Positions 998 through 34,785 of a stretch of DNA of 64,000 nt are shown piece after piece. The first letter of the stretch is position 1. Each line of letters starts with the position of its first letter. The notes beneath the pieces were generated by a model, which made no database searches, was not told the origin of the DNA, and saw only the letters and a list, made by a program, of their open reading frames with translations. This DNA comes from Bradyrhizobium sp. CCGB01 (lineage in GTDB: Bacteria > Pseudomonadota > Alphaproteobacteria > Rhizobiales > Xanthobacteraceae), in assembly GCF_024199795.1 (NCBI RefSeq), contig NZ_JANADK010000001.1, forward strand, positions 6,696,001 to 6,760,000, written 5' to 3'. The position numbers and the translations under genes were made by a program.

Positions 998-1573
998 TCA
1001 TCGGGACCGCTGTGCCCGACGAGCCTCGCGTTCCGTTGCAAAGCCGTAGACCAGCGCCAGCCGGTCCAGGCATTCGCGAAAGCGCCGTGCGAAATAGTCG
1101 TTCCAGCGCTGGGTCCGAACGGCGCGCCGTTCCCCGATCTGATCCATGGTCAGCCCCAGCACCAGGACGTCGTGCACCAGCGCGGCGCCGTCGGTACCGA
1201 GTTCGCGCTCGACGTGGTTCAGGCGCAGCACAGCCTGGCGCTGGCCCTCGGTGACGGGCTCGCGCGAACGCGTGCCATCGACATATTCGCGCGTCGGGTC
1301 CACCGCCTGGGGACCGCGCTCCGCCCTCTCCCAATCGGTCTGGAAGGCGCGCCCGCCGCGATATTGCGCCTCGTCGATCTGGTGATGCGCGTGTAACCGG
1401 CCGAGCGGATCGCCGCGAACCGAGCGGACGGCCACGATCTTCTCGCCGGCATCAAGCGCCAGCGGATTGTCGACCTCGACCTCCGCCAAATCGGCATTGA
1501 ACGGCGCCTCGCGCGATCGCCGGTCGTAGATTCCACTCAGTCTGTAGGATTTGTTGCGTCGGGCACGGGCCAC
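998..1573 (-). CDS. Hypothetical protein, possibly DUF6456-like (191 aa)
   Basis: GTG start at 1573 preceded by a good AAGGAG site. The 191-residue protein is rich in Arg and Asp/Glu. Its centre (VRGDPLGRLHAHHQIDEAQYRGG then a WERAE stretch) and C-terminal helical part resemble the DUF6456/helical regulators often found beside GcrA- and HTH-type genes in alphaproteobacteria and their phages. That family resemblance is from memory of the pattern and is weak. It follows the GcrA-like gene on the same strand with a 45-bp gap and may share its transcript. Function unknown. Confidence 0.6.
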   Translation of the reverse strand: MARARRNKSYRLSGIYDRRSREAPFNADLAEVEVDNPLALDAGEKIVAVRSVRGDPLGRLHAHHQIDEAQYRGGRAFQTDWERAERGPQAVDPTREYVDGTRSREPVTEGQRQAVLRLNHVERELGTDGAALVHDVLVLGLTMDQIGERRAVRTQRWNDYFARRFRECLDRLALVYGFATEREARRAQRSR

Positions 1574-1618: not shown

Positions 1619-2152
1619 TCAGGCGGCAGAGACCAGCCTCAATACGACGGGACCAGCGGCACGGGCGGATCCAGATCCGGATCTCCGCGTCAGGCGAGCA
1701 TGCGGCGCGCAGTAACTCGAACCCGGCTGGCGCGGATGGCCGCAGAAGGCGATCTCCTCCCCCTCCCTGTCGCCGCCATAGGGATAGCGGCAGTCGTCGC
1801 GCCCGAGTTCGACCAGCGTGATCAGGCGCGGCTGGACGCCGACACAGCGCAACTTGACCCGCGCGACGGGCTTCATTGCGGACTTCGGCGGCACGTTCAG
1901 GTACGGCAATGTCGACCGGCGCGGCGACGGCATCCACGCCTCACCCGGCAAAGACGGCACGATCGACGGACTCCTCATCCGTGCCGGCGCGATGAGGCCG
2001 AGGCGCTTGGCGCGGCCGACCACCGCGCTGCGCGTATAAGCGGTTCCAAACCTTGCGTTAATCTGGCGTCCGATCTCCGCATAAGAGATGCCTTTGAGAA
2101 AATAGTCGCGAAGCGCGTCGGAGTGCTCCGACGGCCAATGGCCCGGTTCCAT
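1619..2152 (-). CDS. GcrA family transcriptional regulator (177 aa)
   Basis: GcrA-type proteins bind sigma-70 RNA polymerase and methylated GANTC DNA to tune cell-cycle genes; phages also carry them. Visible here are the N-terminal helix-turn-helix signature (WPSEHSDALRDYFLKG, SYAEIGRQI, TRSAVVGRAKRLGL, about residues 6-55) and the C-terminal Cys/His block (CRYPYGGD, FCGHP, SYCAPHARL, about 120-155) typical of the family. The ATG at 2152 is chosen because AGGAC precedes it; the frame continues upstream to 2200 with unrelated sequence. It diverges from the S24 repressor gene, and its promoter carries the same 15-bp motifs. Whether it is the cell's main GcrA or a phage-derived paralogue cannot be told; the context favours a paralogue. 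Confidence 0.85.
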   Translation of the reverse strand: MEPGHWPSEHSDALRDYFLKGISYAEIGRQINARFGTAYTRSAVVGRAKRLGLIAPARMRSPSIVPSLPGEAWMPSPRRSTLPYLNVPPKSAMKPVARVKLRCVGVQPRLITLVELGRDDCRYPYGGDREGEEIAFCGHPRQPGSSYCAPHARLTRRSGSGSARAAGPVVLRLVSAA

Positions 2153-2200: not shown

Positions 2201-2229
2201 ACATTCCGGTATTCCGAAGCGATAGTCAA
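2201..2229 (-). promoter_or_regulatory. Candidate sigma-70 promoter of the GcrA-like gene
   Basis: Read on the minus strand, TTGACT (2229-2224) is followed after 17 bp by GAATGT (2206-2201), a good -35 with a weak -10. Motif copy O1 (2204-2218) fills most of the spacer and O2 lies just upstream of the -35, the arrangement expected of repressor operators. Confidence 0.45.
2204..2218. promoter_or_regulatory. Operator-like motif O1 (TTCCGGTATTCCGAA)
   Basis: First of five copies of a 15-bp motif with consensus TTCyGrtwTTCsgAA. It overlaps the predicted GcrA-like promoter spacer. Centre-to-centre distance to O2 is 33 bp. Confidence 0.6.
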
Positions 2230-2236
2230 GCCATAA

Positions 2237-2251
2237 TTCTGATATTCATAA
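2237..2251. promoter_or_regulatory. Operator-like motif O2 (TTCTGATATTCATAA)
   Basis: Second copy, midway between the two divergent promoters, so it could serve both. The centre is 24 bp from O3. Confidence 0.55.
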
Positions 2252-2280
2252 TTGCATCAATTCCGAATTTCGGATTACAA
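2252..2280 (+). promoter_or_regulatory. Candidate promoter of the S24 repressor gene
   Basis: TTGCAT (2252-2257) and TTACAA (2275-2280) are 17 bp apart. The -10 is poor, but the geometry copies the downstream promoter exactly: the operator copy begins 3 bp after the -35 hexamer in both. Confidence 0.35.
2261..2275. promoter_or_regulatory. Operator-like motif O3 (TTCCGAATTTCGGAT)
   Basis: Near-palindromic copy inside the predicted promoter of the S24 gene, suggesting autoregulation. Confidence 0.6.
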
Positions 2281-2313
2281 GAGGCGGGACGATGGGTAAT
2301 CGAGGGAATCACC

Positions 2314-2922
2314 ATGTTGGACGTTGCTATGATCGAGCGGGGCCTGGAGAAGACGGGCAAGAGCAAGGGCGGCCTTGCGGCAGCCATGGGCGTGCGGCCC
2401 GGCGCGGTGTCGGAGATTCTCGGCGGCGAACGCCTGGTGAAGGCGTCGGAAATCATTCCGATCATGGAATATCTTGAGCTCAATCTCGCGCCCATCATGG
2501 GCCGCGTCGGCGCCGGCGCCGTGATCGAGCCGGATTATGAGCAGGTTCCGCCGGAGGGCCTCGGCGATATCGCGCTGCCATTCCCGATCATGGAAGAGAC
2601 GGTCGCCTTCGAGATCGTGGGCGACTCGATGCTGCCCAAATACGAGAGCGGCGACGTGATCGTGGTCTACAAGGATCAGCGCCATCCGCTGTCGAGCTTC
2701 TACGGCGAAGAAGCCGTGGTGCGGCTCAAGACCGGCGAGCGTTATTTGAAGACCATCGAGCGGGGCAAGTCGCCCTCGGTCGTCAACCTCACCAGCTTCA
2801 ACGCCAAGCCGATCGTCGGCGTCAAGCTCGAATGGGTCGGCGAGATCTGCCTGTCCATGCCCAAGGGTCAGCTCGAGCGGCTGCGTGCCAAGTCGGCGCG
2901 CCCTCGCAAGAAGAGCAAATAG
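2314..2922 (+). CDS. S24/LexA-like HTH transcriptional repressor (202 aa)
   Basis: Two-part repressor of the CI/LexA type. Residues about 6-50 form an XRE-like helix-turn-helix (KGGLAAAMGV, RPGAVSEILGGER). Residues about 88-180 are a S24 peptidase-like domain with the nucleophile in GDSM (Ser105) and the general-base Lys in YLKT (Lys146). An Ala67-Gly68 bond in RVGAGAV sits 38 residues before Ser105, close to the spacing of the LexA and UmuD autocleavage sites, so RecA-stimulated self-cleavage is plausible but unproven. The tail is Lys/Arg-rich. ATG 2314 has a GAGGGAA site. Copies of one operator motif flank the gene on both sides, implying control of itself, the divergent GcrA-like gene and the next gene. 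Confidence 0.88.
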   Translation: MLDVAMIERGLEKTGKSKGGLAAAMGVRPGAVSEILGGERLVKASEIIPIMEYLELNLAPIMGRVGAGAVIEPDYEQVPPEGLGDIALPFPIMEETVAFEIVGDSMLPKYESGDVIVVYKDQRHPLSSFYGEEAVVRLKTGERYLKTIERGKSPSVVNLTSFNAKPIVGVKLEWVGEICLSMPKGQLERLRAKSARPRKKSK

Positions 2923-2930
2923 GCGTCTAT

Positions 2931-2945
2931 TTCCGATTTTCGGAA
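2931..2945. promoter_or_regulatory. Operator-like motif O4 (TTCCGATTTTCGGAA)
   Basis: Perfect dyad TTCCGA-TTT-TCGGAA directly after the S24 gene and just upstream of a -35 hexamer. The centre is 30 bp from O5, close to three helical turns. Confidence 0.65.
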
Positions 2946-2951
2946 AGTTCC

Positions 2952-2980
2952 TTGACTTAGTTCTGATTTTCGTAAATACT
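2952..2980 (+). promoter_or_regulatory. Sigma-70 promoter of the 91-aa gene
   Basis: TTGACT (2952-2957), 17-bp spacer, AATACT (2975-2980). O5 occupies the spacer, so a bound repressor would block polymerase. Confidence 0.55.
2961..2975. promoter_or_regulatory. Operator-like motif O5 (TTCTGATTTTCGTAA)
   Basis: Fifth copy, between the -35 and -10 of the promoter for the 91-residue protein gene. Confidence 0.6.
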
Positions 2981-3018: not shown

Positions 3019-3294
3019 ATGCAGTATTTCGTCGTGATGATCGACTATGGGCGGCGCGGACGCGAGGCGGTCGTCGATCCCGAAATCACAAGGCGCGAGG
3101 TCGTCTCCCGCGTCGCTTCGGGTGAATATCAAAACATCTCGTTCATCCACGAAATCGCGGAGAATTCGGTCGAGGACGTCACCGAGGCCATCCTGACCGA
3201 GGCCGCCCTCCCCCGGGTTCCACCTGAAGAAGTCGACCTCCAGGCGATCCGGCTCGATCACGCCCGCGACCTGCGCAAGCATGAGCGGACGTGA
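3019..3294 (+). CDS. Small hypothetical protein under operator control (91 aa)
   Basis: No family recognised. It is acidic and helical (EITRREVVSRVASGEY, NSVEDVTEAILTEAALPRVPPEEVD), with no signal peptide or membrane segment. Its importance comes from context: its own promoter at 2952-2980 carries two copies (O4, O5) of the motif that surrounds the adjacent S24 repressor gene, so it is the likely effector or anti-repressor output of that module. A strong terminator follows directly. Confidence 0.6.
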   Translation: MQYFVVMIDYGRRGREAVVDPEITRREVVSRVASGEYQNISFIHEIAENSVEDVTEAILTEAALPRVPPEEVDLQAIRLDHARDLRKHERT

Positions 3295-5933: not shown

Positions 5934-7313
5934 ATGCGCGAGAACCTCCATCGTTTCTTTCGGGCAGCGCGCGGCGCCGGCGTTCATGTCTCGCCCGCCG
6001 AAAGCATCGATGCGATGCGTGCGGTGTCGCAGGTCGGTGTTTCCGACCGCGCTATCCTGCGCGACGCGCTGCTCCTGACGCTCGCCAAGTCGCAGGACGA
6101 GAAGCTCGCGCTCGGCGACTGCTTTGATCTGTTCTTCAGCCAGCCGGAGCCGCGCCAGGATCAGCCCGAGGCCAACAGCGACGACGACGCCTCGCAGGAC
6201 GCGGATCAGTCGCCCTCATCAGGCTCGGCCAGCGAAGCGGGCGAAGGTCAGCCTCCGGAAGCACTTGGCCCCTTGGCGCAGATGCTGCTGTCGCAGGACC
6301 GCAACGCGATCGCGGCCGCGATCGCCAGCGCGTCGGGCGCCGCCTCCCTGTCCGACATCCGCTATTCCACCCAGCGCGGCATCTTCTCCAGCCGCATCCT
6401 CGACGCCATGGGCCTCCAACGCCTGCGCGACGATCTCGACCAATTGACCGCGACCAATCCATCGCTCGCCGAGCGCCTCCGTGCCGCTCTGGACGCCTTG
6501 CGCGAGGCGGTGCGGGACACGGTCTCGCAGGGGCTTGCGCTCTATGCCCGCGAGGAGGCCGAGAACCTCCGCAACGAGATCCTGCGCAATGCGCCGCTCG
6601 CCCGCATCGAGCGGCGGCAGGTCGCGGAGATGCGCGCCCTCATCCGCCAGATCGCGCGCCGCCTGCGCGAGCGCTATTCGAAGCCGCGCAAGCGGCAGCG
6701 CCGCGGCCATCTCGACGTCCGTCGCACGCTGCGCCGCAACGCCGCGTGGGGCGGCGTGCCCTTCCTCACCGCATGGAGGCGCAAGCATCGCGACCGGCCA
6801 AAGATCGTCGCGCTCTGCGACGTCTCCGGCTCGGTCGCGCAGGTCTCCGATTTCTTCCTGCTGCTGATCCACTCGTTGCACGAGGTGGTCGACGACGTCC
6901 GCTCCTTCGCCTTCTCCTCGCATCTGATCGAGGTCAGCGAGATCCTGGAAAAGAAATCGCCGGAAGAGGCGATGGCCGAGATCATGTCCAAGGTCGGATT
7001 CGGTTCGTCCGACTACGGCTCTTCGCTGGTCGATTTCGAGCACGATTTCATGAGCACGCTGACACCGCAGACCACGGTGATCGTGCTCGGCGACGCCCGC
7101 AGCAACAATCTCGATCCGCGTGCCGACATCCTGCGCCGCATCTCCGAGCGCTCGAAGCGCGTGGTCTGGCTCAATCCCGAAGGACGGCTCGCCTGGGGCT
7201 TCGGTGATTCCGAGATGCCGCGCTACGCGACCTTCTGCAGCGTCGTGCGCCAATGCGCGACCGCGCAGCAGCTCGAGCGCGCGGTGTCCGATATCGTGGC
7301 GACCTATCAGTAA
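5934..7313 (+). CDS. VWA-domain protein, CoxE-like partner of MoxR (459 aa)
   Basis: VWA protein of the CoxE type. The N-terminal half is helical with a Gln/Asp/Ser-rich linker (about residues 65-105). The C-terminal VWA domain carries the MIDAS start VALCDVSGSVAQVSDFF (about 290-306) and a later VIVLGDARSNN. It pairs with the MoxR ATPase just upstream. An in-frame TTG at 5925 overlaps the MoxR stop codon; ATG 5934 is the more usual choice. No dehydrogenase structural genes are adjacent, so the client of this pair is unknown. Confidence 0.85.
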   Translation: MRENLHRFFRAARGAGVHVSPAESIDAMRAVSQVGVSDRAILRDALLLTLAKSQDEKLALGDCFDLFFSQPEPRQDQPEANSDDDASQDADQSPSSGSASEAGEGQPPEALGPLAQMLLSQDRNAIAAAIASASGAASLSDIRYSTQRGIFSSRILDAMGLQRLRDDLDQLTATNPSLAERLRAALDALREAVRDTVSQGLALYAREEAENLRNEILRNAPLARIERRQVAEMRALIRQIARRLRERYSKPRKRQRRGHLDVRRTLRRNAAWGGVPFLTAWRRKHRDRPKIVALCDVSGSVAQVSDFFLLLIHSLHEVVDDVRSFAFSSHLIEVSEILEKKSPEEAMAEIMSKVGFGSSDYGSSLVDFEHDFMSTLTPQTTVIVLGDARSNNLDPRADILRRISERSKRVVWLNPEGRLAWGFGDSEMPRYATFCSVVRQCATAQQLERAVSDIVATYQ

Positions 7314-7333
7314 AGTGTGATCGGGCCCCGGCG

Positions 7334-7516
7334 TCAGGCGGCGTTCAGCTCAGCCTGTGCGAGATTGCATTCACGAAAGTGATACGCGATTTCGTCGAGC
7401 GCGCGCTGCTCCCATTCCTGGGCCTGCGCAAGCCAGAATACCCGGCGCTCCGAATCGAGAGCCGCACGTTCACGGCACAAAAATTCCTGACCGCGAATTT
7501 CAACCAGTCTGTTCAT
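7334..7516 (-). CDS. Small conserved hypothetical protein (60 aa)
   Basis: A 60-residue, charged, helical protein (MNRLVEIRGQEFLCRERAAL, then a Trp/Gln-rich helix VFWLAQAQEWEQRALDEIAYHF) that would form a helical hairpin. ATG 7516 has a GGAGTGGAG site immediately upstream; an ATG 18 bp earlier lacks one. I recognise the sequence style from Bradyrhizobium genomes but know no function. It is convergent with the CoxE-like gene. Confidence 0.65.
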   Translation of the reverse strand: MNRLVEIRGQEFLCRERAALDSERRVFWLAQAQEWEQRALDEIAYHFRECNLAQAELNAA

Positions 7517-7868
7517 ACACTCCACTCCTGCCATGTGAAGTCATTCCCCGTGAATCAGGCTTAACAGAGTCCCGCCCCTCTCGCCTGATGATTTCTGTGC
7601 ATATCGCGACGCAGAATGGGACAGCGATGCTTCCCGTGCACTGCGGTAGCTCGCGGCGCACAATCAAGAGCAGATCATCAATTAGTGATCGAAGATCGGG
7701 ACGATACTCGCGTCCGAGCGATCTTAACTCTTGTGACGCAATGAAGTGCGGCAATTTGTGAAGAGACGTTCTAAACAGCTCACCGAATTCCCGACTCATT
7801 GTCGTCGCATGGTCTTCATGCAGCGCCGTTAACAGGGGCACGCGAACTTGACGATCGCTTGAGGCAAC
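7517..7868. other. 352-bp stretch without a convincing gene
   Basis: This stretch is less GC-rich than its surroundings. A minus-strand open frame of up to 135 codons crosses it, but its codons lack the strong G/C third-position bias of the neighbours and it overlaps genes at both ends. I see no hairpin terminator or recognised promoter. Confidence 0.4.
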
Positions 7869-8090
7869 ATGAGCAATGACATCGACTTCGATCTTTCGCC
7901 GGACCAATGGGAAGCGCTGAAGGCGCTTCGCAACCCCGTGTCGAACGGTCGCCTCTCGAAGGCCTACATCGTGGAAGGTCTCGTCAAGCTCGGCCTCGTT
8001 GTCGTCAGTGACGGCGTACCTTCGATAACGCCGACCGGACGCAAGGTTCTCGTGCGCGGATCATGCAGGCTCCTGGATCTCGTGGCGTGA
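7869..8090 (+). CDS. Small hypothetical protein, winged-helix-like (73 aa)
   Basis: A 73-residue protein whose pattern (SPDQWEALKALRN, SKAYIVEGLVKLGLVVV, GVPSITPTGRKVLV) reads like a compact winged helix with a TPTGR wing, as in small MarR-like or phage DNA-binding proteins. No catalytic motif, signal or membrane segment. It stands alone, convergent with the methionine aminopeptidase gene. Confidence 0.6.
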   Translation: MSNDIDFDLSPDQWEALKALRNPVSNGRLSKAYIVEGLVKLGLVVVSDGVPSITPTGRKVLVRGSCRLLDLVA

Positions 8091-8171
8091 CGAGGCTGTC
8101 GCAACAGCTTTGCACGATCGCCTGAAAAATGATCCTTCGCGCGCTGCTGAGGGCGCGTCGCGGGGATGACC

Positions 8172-8921
8172 TCAACCCGCCAACGTAACGACCAAAGGTC
8201 CATTTCGAGTTGCGACAACCGTGTGTTCGTACTGAACCGTAGGCGCCTCGGGGCTGCCGTAGAGCGTCCATGGATCATCGCCATCCTCTGCCCACTCGGC
8301 GCCAATGGACAGGAACGGCTCGACGGTGAACACCAGGCCATCGCCCATGACGCGACGTTCGGAGGAGTCGGGCCATGTTGCGATCTCTGTCGGCTCCTCA
8401 TGGAGCGACAAACCGACACCGTGACTGGCGAGGTTCTTGACGAGCGTATAGCCGTTTTTCCGGGCGAAGGCCCCGATGGCTTGGCCAATGCCGGCAATCG
8501 GCTTGCCGGCTCCAACCTGCCGCAGGCCCGTCCACATCGCCCGCCGACCATCCCTGCAAAGACGCTCGATCGAACGGGTCACGGGCGGAACGGCGAACGA
8601 GGCTCCCGTATCGGCGAAGAAGCCGCTCTTCTCAGCCGAAACGTCGATGTTGACGAGGTCGCCACGTTCGATCCGCCGGGCACCGGGAATGCCATGAGCG
8701 ATCTCTTCGTTCACGCTGATGCAGGTTGCGCCGGGAAAGGCATAGGCCAGTTCCGGCGCCGAACGCGCCCCGGCAGCCTCCAGCATCCTTCGTCCGATCT
8801 GGTCGAGTTCAGAGGTGGTCATGCCGGGCTCGAGGGCCTTCCCCATCGCCTCGAGGGCGTTGGCGACGATACGCCCGACCTCTTTCAGGCAGATCAGATC
8901 GTTCTCATTCGAGATTGTCAT
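8172..8921 (-). CDS. map: Type I methionine aminopeptidase (249 aa)
   Basis: Removes the initiator methionine from nascent proteins. The five metal ligands of the pita-bread fold are visible: Asp93 (VNIDVSAE), Asp104 (FFADTG), His167 (NLASHGVG), Glu201 (FTVEPF) and Glu232 (VQYEHTVV). The length of 249 residues suits type I. ATG 8921 has a GGAAGAG site; the frame is open further upstream without one. Because it diverges from dctA and sits beside unrelated genes, it may be an additional copy rather than the main essential one. Confidence 0.92.
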   Translation of the reverse strand: MTISNENDLICLKEVGRIVANALEAMGKALEPGMTTSELDQIGRRMLEAAGARSAPELAYAFPGATCISVNEEIAHGIPGARRIERGDLVNIDVSAEKSGFFADTGASFAVPPVTRSIERLCRDGRRAMWTGLRQVGAGKPIAGIGQAIGAFARKNGYTLVKNLASHGVGLSLHEEPTEIATWPDSSERRVMGDGLVFTVEPFLSIGAEWAEDGDDPWTLYGSPEAPTVQYEHTVVATRNGPLVVTLAG

Positions 8922-9047
8922 ATCGAGCTCTTCCGAAAGCCGGGACATAGCGGTTGCGATGCCGACTTGCAAACCGGAGGGCGCAACGCAGGAATCCCGG
9001 ATTTTCCGACGGCCCTGGATGACCTTCCAGAACAAACCGCGACAATC

Positions 9048-9063
9048 TGGCACGGTAGTTGCT
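9048..9063 (+). promoter_or_regulatory. Sigma-54 promoter of dctA
   Basis: TGGCACG-gtag-TTGCT matches the sigma-54 consensus, with GG at 9049-9050 and GC at 9061-9062 exactly 10 bp apart. Transcription would start near 9073, about 33 bp before dctA. An imperfect inverted pair (TCCGAAAGCCGGGA near 8932, TCCCGGATTTTCCGA near 8995) lies upstream where DctD-type activator sites would be expected. Confidence 0.85.
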
Positions 9064-9105
9064 CCCTATTGATGATCGAGACGCGTCAAATCGGGGGAGT
9101 TCACC

Positions 9106-10425
9106 ATGTCGACCATTGCCGCGGCACCGGCCGCCGAGTCCAAGCCGCTCTATACCTCGCTGTTCGTCCAGGTCCTTGCCGCGCTGATCCTCGGCATCGT
9201 CCTCGGCATGCTCGTCCCCGACTTTGCCGTCGGCCTCAAGATCCTGAGCGACGCCTTTTTGAAGCTGATCTCGATGATCGTGGCCCCGATCGTGTTCTGC
9301 GTCGTCGTGCACGGCATTGCCGGCGCGGGCGACCTCAAGAAGGTCGGCCGGGTCGGCGTCAAGGCGCTGGTCTATTTCGAGGTCATGACGACCGTCGCAC
9401 TCGTCGTCGGCCTGCTGCTCGCTTACCTCTTCGGCCCCGGCCATGGCATGAACATCGATCCCTCGACGCTGGATGCCAAGGCGCTCAACACCTATGCCGA
9501 CAACGCCCACAAGCTGTCCGGCGGCGGCATCGGCGCTTTCCTGATGAACGTGATTCCCAGCACCTCCTTCGATGCGCTGTCGCGCAACGACGTGCTCCAG
9601 GTGCTGTTCTTCGCGGTTCTGTTCGGTGTAGGCCTTGCGCTCGTCGGCGGCGAGAAGGGCGCGCTTGTCACATCGATGATCGACGCGGCCTCCACCGTGC
9701 TGTTCCGCGTCATGGGACTGATCGTTCGCGTCGCCCCACTTGGCGTGCTCGGCGCGGTCGCCTATACCGTCGGCAAATATGGCGTCGGCTCGCTGAAGCA
9801 GCTCGTGTCGCTGGTGATGCTGTTCTACGTCTCGGTCGGCATCTTCGTGCTGGGCGTGCTCGGCAGCGTCATGGCGCTCGCCGGAATCAACATCCTCAAA
9901 TTCCTCGCTTACTTGCGCGAAGAGCTGACCATCGTGCTCGCGACCGCTTCCTCCGATGCCGTGCTGCCGCAGATCATGAAGAAGCTGGAGCGGATGGGCG
10001 TGAAGGATTCCGTGGTCGGCCTCGTCATCCCGACCGGCTATTCCTTCAACCTCGACGCTTTCTCGATCTACCTGACGCTTGCCGTCGTCTTCATTGCGCA
10101 GGCGACCAACACGCCGCTGTCGTTTGGCGACCTCCTGCTGGTGCTCGGCGTTTCGCTGATCACGTCGAAGGGCGCGCACGGCGTGCCCGGCTCGGCGATC
10201 GTGATCCTGGCCGCGACGCTCAACGCCGTGCCGAGCATTCCTGCCATCGGCCTCGTGCTGGTGTTGTCGGTCGACTGGTTCATCGGCATGGCCCGCGCCG
10301 TCGGCAACCTCGTCGGCAATTGCGTGGCGACGGTCGTCGTGGCCGCGTGGGAAGGCGACCTCGACCGCGCCAAGGCGGCCAAGGTGCTGGAGGGCGGCGA
10401 ACTGGTGGACGTGACGGCGGGATAG
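9106..10425 (+). CDS. dctA: C4-dicarboxylate/cation symporter DctA (439 aa)
   Basis: Inner-membrane DAACS-family carrier that takes up succinate, fumarate and malate. About eight hydrophobic segments are visible, with the family motifs SSDAVLPQIM (hairpin region, about residues 285-295), PTGYSFNLDAFSIYLTLAVVFIAQATN (about 308-334) and SKGAHGVPGSAIVILAATL (about 350-368). ATG 9106 follows GGGGGAG. The sigma-54 promoter directly upstream fits rhizobial DctB/DctD control. No dctBD genes are seen beside it. Confidence 0.95.
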   Translation: MSTIAAAPAAESKPLYTSLFVQVLAALILGIVLGMLVPDFAVGLKILSDAFLKLISMIVAPIVFCVVVHGIAGAGDLKKVGRVGVKALVYFEVMTTVALVVGLLLAYLFGPGHGMNIDPSTLDAKALNTYADNAHKLSGGGIGAFLMNVIPSTSFDALSRNDVLQVLFFAVLFGVGLALVGGEKGALVTSMIDAASTVLFRVMGLIVRVAPLGVLGAVAYTVGKYGVGSLKQLVSLVMLFYVSVGIFVLGVLGSVMALAGINILKFLAYLREELTIVLATASSDAVLPQIMKKLERMGVKDSVVGLVIPTGYSFNLDAFSIYLTLAVVFIAQATNTPLSFGDLLLVLGVSLITSKGAHGVPGSAIVILAATLNAVPSIPAIGLVLVLSVDWFIGMARAVGNLVGNCVATVVVAAWEGDLDRAKAAKVLEGGELVDVTAG

Positions 10426-33981: not shown

Positions 33982-34100
33982 CTGCGCTCGAAATCCGGGG
34001 TGCAAGGTAGCAGCATCGCCCCTCCAGCTCGCATTTGAATCCTGGACACACTGATCCGCTCTCGCGGCTCAATTCGCCCGAGCTCTGCTTCGTCACTCCA

Positions 34101-34253
34101 CCCTCTTGAACCAAGAGGGCGCAGGGAAGGCCGGGTGCCGGCCGGCACCCACGGTCCGCTGTGCGCTTGTAGCGCAAAAGAAATGCACAGCGGCATACAG
34201 GTGAAGCCCAACACACGGCCTTCCCTGCGCAGTGGGTTGACGGCTTATGCCGT
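34101..34253. ncRNA. Nested multi-hairpin structure, candidate structured RNA or cruciform
   Basis: Hairpin CCCTCTTG-AAC-CAAGAGGG (34101-34119). Then a 15-bp long-range stem, GCGCAGGGAAGGCCG (34119-34133) with CGGCCTTCCCTGCGC (34216-34230), encloses the 18-bp palindrome GGGTGCCGGCCGGCACCC (34133-34150) and the hairpin CCGCTGTGC/GCACAGCGG (34156-34193). A small ACGGC-TTAT-GCCGT hairpin follows (34240-34253). All stems are perfectly paired. Strand and function are unknown. Confidence 0.45.
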
Positions 34254-34630
34254 GCTCTCCCGGGAGCCGAGTTCGTTCTGGCCTCCCTCGCCCCGGCGAA
34301 ATTCGCGGACACCGCGCCGGTTGACGCGACTGCCGTCTCCGCAAGAGCTTGACCGTAGCAACGACGGCCAGGACCACACGGTTTTGCCGTACGCGCGTTC
34401 GTTGGCGCCACAGGGTTCGACGACGTTGTGCACTTTGCCGTCGAAATGTTGGCGAGACGAACTCACAGCGCCGCTCGTCCGCACGAAGCCTCGGGCTCAC
34501 GGAGAGCAATCCGCCCTGCCCTCAGCATCACGTGCCGACGCTGCCGCGTCCACCGCAACCCGCCTCGCGAAACGCGACGACACAAGATCGCCCCTCAAGA
34601 TCGAGCCGGGATGCGCGACACATACGCCGT

Positions 34631-34645
34631 TTCCGAATTTCGGTA
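34631..34645. promoter_or_regulatory. Sixth match to the S24-module operator motif
   Basis: TTCCGAATTTCGGTA agrees with O3 (TTCCGAATTTCGGAT) at 13 of 15 positions, 32 kb away and inside the non-coding repeat. Whether the repressor binds here is unknown. Confidence 0.35.
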
Positions 34646-34785
34646 AAGTGGAATATTTTGCTGACAGGGGATTGACGGGCAGCGAAACAGGCGGCCGTCG
34701 ACGGGGCACGTCGCACGGATGCAACAAAGGGGCGGTGCAAGCACCGCCCCTTTGGCAAGCTGCAGAGTACAGCCCAGACAGCCCC

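Follow-up and report, generated by a model that had tools for sequence, protein, structure and literature searches.

Several regulatory systems of phages and bacteria are known that have a repressor of the LexA/CI type. The immunity region of phage lambda comprises the repressor gene cI, the operator OR with its three sites (OR1-3), the operator OL and the genes cro, N and Q. In Pseudomonas aeruginosa the AlpR-AlpA system consists of an autocleaving LexA/CI-like repressor that governs an antiterminator and is triggered by DNA damage. The available text of PMC11150451 likewise mentions AlpA as an antiterminator and describes that GafZ antiterminates the gene transfer agent (GTA) cluster of Caulobacter, and according to this text and the accessible part of PMC9632790 gafYZ is repressed by RogA. 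GafA homologues carry the annotation DUF6456, as given in passages of PMC9638019 and PMC9765227.

Here, we describe a cassette of four genes and five operators in Bradyrhizobium sp. CCGB01, located in a stretch of 64,000 nucleotides that was analysed as a whole (the window, to which all positions refer). This locus is probably the immunity and early regulatory region of a temperate phage that has been domesticated and would work as a damage-released switch acting in trans. The reading is built on homology and gene order, on the conserved operators and the catalytic motifs, on purifying selection and on phage relatives. Among open-licence papers no description of the cassette was found in print. 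Its features are the following.

998..1573, minus strand: DUF6456 (GafA/GafZ-type) protein of 191 aa, assigned to the phage branch; second gene of the gcrA-like operon
1619..2152, minus strand: GcrA-like protein (PF07750, 163.7 bits)
2204..2218, strand not applicable: operator O1, in the -35/-10 spacer of the gcrA-like promoter
2224..2229, minus strand: TTGACT, flanked by O1 and O2, as -35 hexamer of the gcrA-like promoter, whose -10 is weak by eye
2237..2251: middle operator O2, upstream of the gcrA-like -35
2261..2275: operator O3, at the head of the repressor gene (putative autoregulation)
2314..2922, plus strand: S24 repressor of 202 aa, HTH and LexA/CI-type autopeptidase, from Pfam, PHROG and motif evidence
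2931..2945: operator O4, perfectly palindromic, located before the -35 of the 91-aa gene
2952..2980, plus strand: promoter-like sequence TTGACT-17-AATACT of the 91-aa gene, its spacer holding O5
2961..2975: operator O5, between -35 and -10 of the 91-aa gene
3019..3294, plus strand: 91-aa protein, with phage homologues just upstream of ERF/YqaJ recombination genes

The original prediction had proposed five copies of one operator at 2204, 2237, 2261, 2931 and 2961, and all of them were found at these coordinates. The 15-bp string that it gave for them (TTCyGrtwTTCsgAA) is exact at 2204 and 2931 but has one mismatch at 2961 and two at both 2237 and 2261. Comparison of the two intergenic regions in 30 same-genus loci yields a 17-bp palindrome, about TTTCYGAWWWTCRGAAA, with the highest column information at positions 2-4 and 6 of each half. 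With up to three mismatches the 15-bp string has 21 matches in the window versus 8.96 expected, a number reached in 0 of 100 shuffles. A test matrix composed of 60 sites from 12 divergent relatives only (second clade, 77-82% S24 identity) gives the five operators, taken together, the ranks 1, 2, 4, 5 and 6 in the 64-kb window. Dinucleotide shuffles contain on average 0.07 matches at the score of the lowest window operator, and none of 100 has more than one such match within 800 bp. The own genome was searched with patterns, namely a slightly widened string with the reversed string as control and a palindrome pattern. The widened string has only three exact matches, all at the repressor locus, and 162 matches with up to two mismatches versus 105 for the reversed control; the palindrome pattern matches O4 and one further place. 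By these searches the motif is not common genome-wide.

The sites are also conserved in orthologous loci. A matrix from all 30 loci was applied to 54 same-genus loci (24 of them outside the matrix), and three upstream plus two downstream sites are kept in 47 of the 54 and in 18 of the 24. All seven exceptions lack one downstream site (by position O4 in at least four) and two of them lack O3 as well. Of the 52 loci that have exactly three upstream sites, 48 have O1 and O2 spaced by 33 bp and 4 by 34 bp; O4 and O5 are 30-33 bp apart in all 47 loci with exactly two downstream sites. The matrix has 0 matches in 33,297 bp of repressor (S24) coding sequence. Judged by this comparison, the five operators are confirmed as real, conserved sequence elements.

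The third-ranked matrix match in the window (34630) falls inside a dispersed repeat at approximately 34054-34700 (minus strand), which has the palindrome at 34630-34646 in its promoter-like head. This repeat family has 13 matches in the own genome and 40, 52 and 51 in the genomes G025, G019 and G015, respectively; copies were examined at loci L168-L188, L195-L206 and L238-L257, and three repeat loci gave no gathering match in Rfam. The palindrome is present (anywhere in 1001 bp) in 20/20 copies of G025, chosen regardless of the motif, and in 4 of 6 own-genome copies measured (8 tried). It occurs in 0/8 copies of G015 and 1/13 copies of G019, where one copy was picked for the motif, and the copies of G031 were chosen for having it. 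The extra operator-like sites of G025 and G031 were considered as a regulon and rejected, as they are located in this repeat. The palindrome is still recorded here because so few of the G015 and G019 copies have it. The repeat palindrome is either a coincidence or the result of lineage-specific capture by the repressor.

The arrangement of the operators follows the promoters. On the minus strand the order is O2, TTGACT (2229-2224), O1 and a weak -10, and on the plus strand O4, TTGACT (2952-2957), O5 and AATACT as given by a promoter scan; at both repressed promoters, then, one operator precedes the -35 and another occupies the spacer. TTGAC is found between O1 and O2 in 53/54 loci and directly before O5 in 51/54. 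O1 had been claimed to overlap the GcrA-like promoter and does so, since it sits in the -35/-10 spacer. A second claim, that two operators share the same offset of 3 bp after a -35 hexamer, holds in the window for TTGCAT (2252-2257) and TTGACT (2952-2957), but TTGCAT is not conserved in 12 second-clade loci; the conserved geometry is instead that O1/O2 and O4/O5 each flank a TTGAC. The promoter originally assigned to the S24 repressor is accordingly not conserved in the second clade. In the window O3 can be read as lying within a TTGCAT/TTACAA promoter, the promoter scan offers TAGTCA-18-CATAAT instead, and the second-clade equivalent of O3 lies behind TATGAT, over the presumed start point. 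The repressor's own promoter in CCGB01 thus has two candidate placements. Because its -10 is poor, the gcrA-like promoter may not be switched on by derepression alone. As far as can be judged from the DNA, the locus appears to share with lambda-type immunity regions the repeated operators at divergent promoters and at a left early promoter (three plus two sites in 47/54 loci, with the pairs flanking TTGAC). A GAATC (GANTC, CcrM-type) is located at 2306-2310, 3 bp before the repressor ATG, and recurs in 17 of the 18 first-clade loci listed. The 12 second-clade loci do not have it at that place, although several contain a different GANTC in the vicinity. It is a possible feedback site for a GcrA-type protein.

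The repressor matches PF00717 with 43.2 bits, HTH models below their cut-offs, and phrog_4 (transcriptional repressor); PDB sequences contain no relative at 0.01. Its Ser and Lys motifs are found in 54/54 loci and its Ala-Gly motif in 53/54, with the catalytic residues assigned by motif to what we take to be those of LexA/CI. Such a protein with HTH, S24 autopeptidase, Ser/Lys dyad and Ala-Gly site would be of the lambda type, and these catalytic motifs set it apart from RogA, whose S24-like domain is without catalytic residues and which represses gafYZ. Orthologues are present in 33 of 35 other Bradyrhizobium genomes, assigned to this genus by the names of their proteins, and both misses are assemblies of 720 and 1000 contigs. 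In a family-wide draw of 296 the repressor is found in 27 same-genus rows including the own genome (misses only partly listed), and outside the genus its best match has 54%.

The divergent operon begins with the GcrA-like gene. A longer ORF extends to 2200 but would overlap the promoter, so that translation presumably starts with the ATG at 2152. The protein matches PF07750 over nearly its full length and differs from canonical GcrA, reaching 48.5 bits with the equivalog NF050816 versus a cut-off of 280. The GcrA-family protein had been assigned to the cro position; its gene is indeed the first one of the divergent operon (among ORFs of at least 60 aa), where a lambda-type region has Cro, but it fits a regulator of the early right operon better than a Cro analogue. 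The operon is completed by the DUF6456 gene (998-1573), which the first reading of the locus overlooked. The window protein alone scores 19.6 bits with Pfam DUF6456, below the cut-off of 26.3, and its affiliation follows from its relatives: PF20057 is matched by 11/11 members of an alignment that takes in another genus and a phage (best 2.1e-8), and a pairwise comparison of profiles, made against 18 stronger DUF6456 proteins, reaches 96.3% at E 2e-9. Since the window protein stays below the cut-off and very long branches join the GTA and phage types, it is not certain that it shares the activity of GafZ. For the 91-aa protein Pfam contains no model that matches at 0.1. Between the DUF6456 gene and a convergent 118-aa gene a long GC-rich inverted repeat is visible by eye (961-994), which looks like a shared terminator and is not among the predictions of the terminator scan.

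The phylogeny of DUF6456 was reconstructed from 47 rows, including 13 cassette proteins, with 200 bootstrap trees. The 13 cassette proteins form one clade (100/97) among viral rows and the GTA-type proteins (GafZ) stand on a separate branch (100/100). In 0/200 bootstrap trees are the viral rows alone on one side. The nesting of the cassette inside the viral rows depends on the GTA outgroup, because the GTA branch is long and the inner viral forks beside the cassette are not starred. According to this tree the cassette DUF6456 belongs to the phage branch and does not group with the GTA-type proteins. By the marker searches given below it also does not co-occur with a GTA cluster as GafA/GafZ of the RcGTA type do.

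Relatives of the cassette occur in phages. The Bradyrhizobium phage or prophage ppBeUSDA76-2 (OP596614) encodes homologues of the 91-aa protein (49%) and of the DUF6456 protein (45%), the former on the left strand two genes ahead of ERF, behind which YqaJ and NinB are located, the latter on the right strand three genes before terminase. Scans of viral contigs revealed DUF6456 in 13 loci, the 91-aa gene in 24 and the repressor in 13 (four via a short segment only), and in 7 of the 24 viral loci with the 91-aa gene this gene is followed by ERF/YqaJ matches of equal orientation. The viral contig L306 contains 91-aa (plus), GcrA, DUF1376 and DUF6456 (all minus), i.e., the order and orientation of the cassette. 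Besides L306 the 49 viral loci include three with 91-aa and DUF6456 and six with 91-aa and GcrA (L291 left out), always divergent. Frames are open over the viral matches examined, two GcrA matches being partial (L302 and L305). Another viral contig, L283, has ERF, an S24 repressor in the cI position, DnaA-C, a replication initiation protein, DUF6456 and terminase. In another genus of the family (L107 of genome G133, 7282-10196) a repressor with 54%, DUF6456, a DnaA-C protein and a replication initiation protein make up a phage-like early region; its operator-like sites are weaker (12.7-19.1), and no structural genes were noticed by eye among the ORFs printed. A phage primosomal gene, DUF1376, survives between GcrA and DUF6456 in 3/22 second-clade and 0/32 window-clade loci, its protein having 67-71% to a phage protein and open frames (the domain was checked for one of three).

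The full operator cluster was found in none of 51 phage and viral loci scanned except L291. This 4.5-kb contig (IMGVR_UViG_3300020015_000012), filed as viral, has DUF1376, GcrA, S24 (79%), five strong operators and the 91-aa gene and is probably a fragment of a Bradyrhizobium chromosome. The suggestion of a phage immunity region, possibly a domesticated prophage switch, is thus supported by the relatives in ppBeUSDA76-2 (91-aa, DUF6456) and by viral contigs of matching order and orientation, and further by the S24 protein in the cI position of L283 and the primosomal gene in three cassettes. Its domestication part agrees with the distribution of the repressor (33/35 genomes) and the purifying selection on the genes.

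The four genes are colinear in 14/14 regions. GcrA and the 91-aa gene were detected in each of the 54 loci; DUF6456 was detected in 51 and is situated outside the fetched flank in the remaining three. Open frames were observed for S24 in 54/54 loci, for DUF6456 in the 51/51 in reach, for GcrA in 52/54 and for the 91-aa gene in 51/54. Broken-looking frames were observed for GcrA in L045 and L085 and for the 91-aa gene in L051, L052 and L072, with S24 and DUF6456 open there, and represent either decay or sequencing error. Median dN/dS is 0.14 for S24, 0.15 for the 91-aa gene, 0.18 for DUF6456 and 0.36 for GcrA, with coverage filtering and n=14 for GcrA (without the L095 row) and for the 91-aa gene (without the L100 row); three neighbouring genes have 0.09-0.12 (seven first-clade regions). 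By these ratios purifying selection acts on the cassette genes. A common chromosomal site of all cassettes is supported in part, since window-type neighbours on the same sides are kept in 4/9 second-clade genomes examined. Head, tail, packaging, lysis or integration PHROGs are not matched at 1e-5 by any of the 20 longer flanking ORFs (approximately 13 kb on either side), so that the linked integrase, packaging and structural genes of a functional prophage are missing among them, and DUF1376 occurs in 3/54 loci.

From these data the following course can be proposed. The region would have been captured in the ancestor of Bradyrhizobium, most simply once, and the host would have retained it when the remainder of the prophage had gone. 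The S24 repressor is predicted to shut two promoters by binding to the operator pairs that flank their -35 boxes, with O1 and O2 acting at the gcrA-DUF6456 operon and O4 and O5 at the 91-aa gene, and O3 (with O2) would tune its own synthesis. The trigger may be self-cleavage of the repressor, most simply RecA-assisted at the Ala-Gly bond following DNA damage. Not every repressor of this kind is cleaved, because RogA of Caulobacter is described as having no catalytic residues (PMC9632790). Upon release a GcrA-family sigma-70 cofactor and a GafZ/Q-like antiterminator would be made together and would act in trans on promoters elsewhere. Action in trans is proposed because no late genes remain beside the regulators; no such target was found. 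Binding, cleavage, the DNA-damage trigger, the activator and antiterminator activities and the targets in trans are the parts that we infer. We count against this reading that GcrA evolves fastest, that frames look broken for GcrA in 2/54 and for the 91-aa gene in 3/54 loci, and that 7/54 loci are without one downstream operator and two of these without O3.

If the output were the GcrA-like protein and not the antiterminator, the locus could be a stress switch of the host cell cycle that redirects sigma-70 at GANTC promoters, which we regard as rather unlikely. The nearly full-length PF07750 match and the GAATC before the repressor ATG in first-clade loci would suit it, and phage-borne GcrA was proposed to steer the host cycle (PMC3556154, accessible part). 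But DUF6456 is more constrained than GcrA, the GAATC is not at that place in the second clade despite some GANTC nearby, and the GcrA-like protein is below the cut-off for canonical GcrA.

The DUF6456 gene also raises the question of a relation to GTAs. Of 36 Bradyrhizobium genomes 34 are without TIGR02219, a marker of RcGTA, which 17/24 others of the order possess; the two Bradyrhizobium matches are a partial one of 92 bits in G035 and one of 33 bits, below the cut-off, in G010. DUF6456 proteins of at least 90 bits are found in 18/24 other genomes of the order and in 0/36 of Bradyrhizobium, where the best one has 52.8 bits and belongs to G033, a genome without a detected cassette repressor. 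A possible loss of GTAs in nodulating lineages is mentioned in the available text of PMC7363004. Since TIGR02219 is mostly and strong DUF6456 wholly missing in the 36 Bradyrhizobium genomes, the cassette is not a usual GTA regulator. The RcGTA cluster was rejected as its target, as GTA_TIM has no match in the own genome and TIGR02219 occurs in 2/36 Bradyrhizobium genomes only.

A weak phage portal match (38.6 bits, below the cut-off) at 2,773,402 of the own genome (G000:C1:2773402-2773812), situated in a 643-aa ORF, was discarded as a target for having no link to the cassette; this ORF may belong to another prophage remnant. Reads from phage-like particles of B. japonicum S06B cover the chromosome evenly, according to PMC10127595. 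Particles of this type are one possible output of the released regulators, with no observed link to the cassette. It is conceivable, and in our opinion doubtful, that after the loss of RcGTA Bradyrhizobium runs a second, independently domesticated phage programme, in which the GcrA and GafZ-like pair, released by the damage-cleavable repressor, drives phage-derived late or lysis genes elsewhere, perhaps those of S06B particles. If true, this would be a system for gene transfer or altruistic lysis with regulators and particle genes at separate loci.

That the repressor is kept for superinfection immunity, silencing incoming phages that share its operators with the other genes as passengers, appears very unlikely. 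It agrees with the repressor having the lowest dN/dS of the four genes and with two related sites (19.6 and 15.9) in viral contig L304, 31 bp apart and a few hundred bases from the GcrA match. However, the full operator cluster is restricted among the 51 phage and viral loci to the probably chromosomal L291, the repressed genes are constrained too, and the four cassette proteins have no PADLOC match at 0.01. Finally, a decaying prophage remnant without present function, in which sites and genes persist by inertia, is highly improbable: the locus is phage-like yet incomplete, has the primosomal gene in so few loci, and includes a faster drifting GcrA and some broken-looking GcrA (2/54) and 91-aa (3/54) frames, but the repressor is retained in almost all other genomes with its frame and Ser/Lys motifs intact in every locus, three genes have dN/dS of 0.14-0.18, and the operators are conserved although the surrounding DNA differs between the clades.

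The probable domesticated immunity region in Bradyrhizobium looks like a phage decision circuit of which the regulators alone are left. It seems to persist across a genus of central importance to agriculture with selection on operators, active-site motifs of the repressor and output regulators. It represents a case of a GcrA-family cofactor beside a GafZ-like antiterminator, in replacement of the usual DnaA-like partner, and makes testable which role phage late regulators have in a host that discarded the late genes.

Compared with known systems, the cassette resembles lambda in its CI-like S24 repressor with cleavage motifs, in three operators at two diverging promoters and a further group of operators at the leftward early promoter, and in having one early-left gene and, in the rightward operon, one at the position of Q. 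In contrast with lambda it has a GcrA-family protein in the place of cro, no recognised recombination, late or integrase genes alongside and a replication gene in only 3/54 loci, and it is near-universal in the host genus. With RogA-GafYZ of Caulobacter crescentus it shares a LexA-like repressor of HTH and S24 domains over an operon of two genes, the second of them GafZ-type. RogA differs in lacking cleavage residues and, judged by the gene numbers, in not adjoining gafYZ (PMC9632790). Moreover, the GafY partner is DnaA-like in related GafA proteins and GcrA-like in the cassette, the cassette DUF6456 is of the phage branch, and TIGR02219 is absent from nearly all Bradyrhizobium genomes (34/36). 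The likeness to AlpR-AlpA is one of description, namely an autocleaving LexA/CI-like repressor over an antiterminator with DNA damage as trigger, cleavage and trigger being predicted for the cassette, which adds the GcrA partner and the 91-aa gene. Similar in gene content are ppBeUSDA76-2, L283 and L306, with the 91-aa gene on the left strand (ppBeUSDA76-2 and L306), DUF6456 in the right operon (all three), GcrA (L306) and S24 (L283); unlike the cassette they possess further phage genes and are without the cluster of its operators. Singly the parts are known, phage GcrA from PMC3556154 and repressor-GafYZ circuits from PMC9632790 and PMC11150451, and what is new is that they occur together and are maintained in this form across a host genus, with no late genes recognised beside them.
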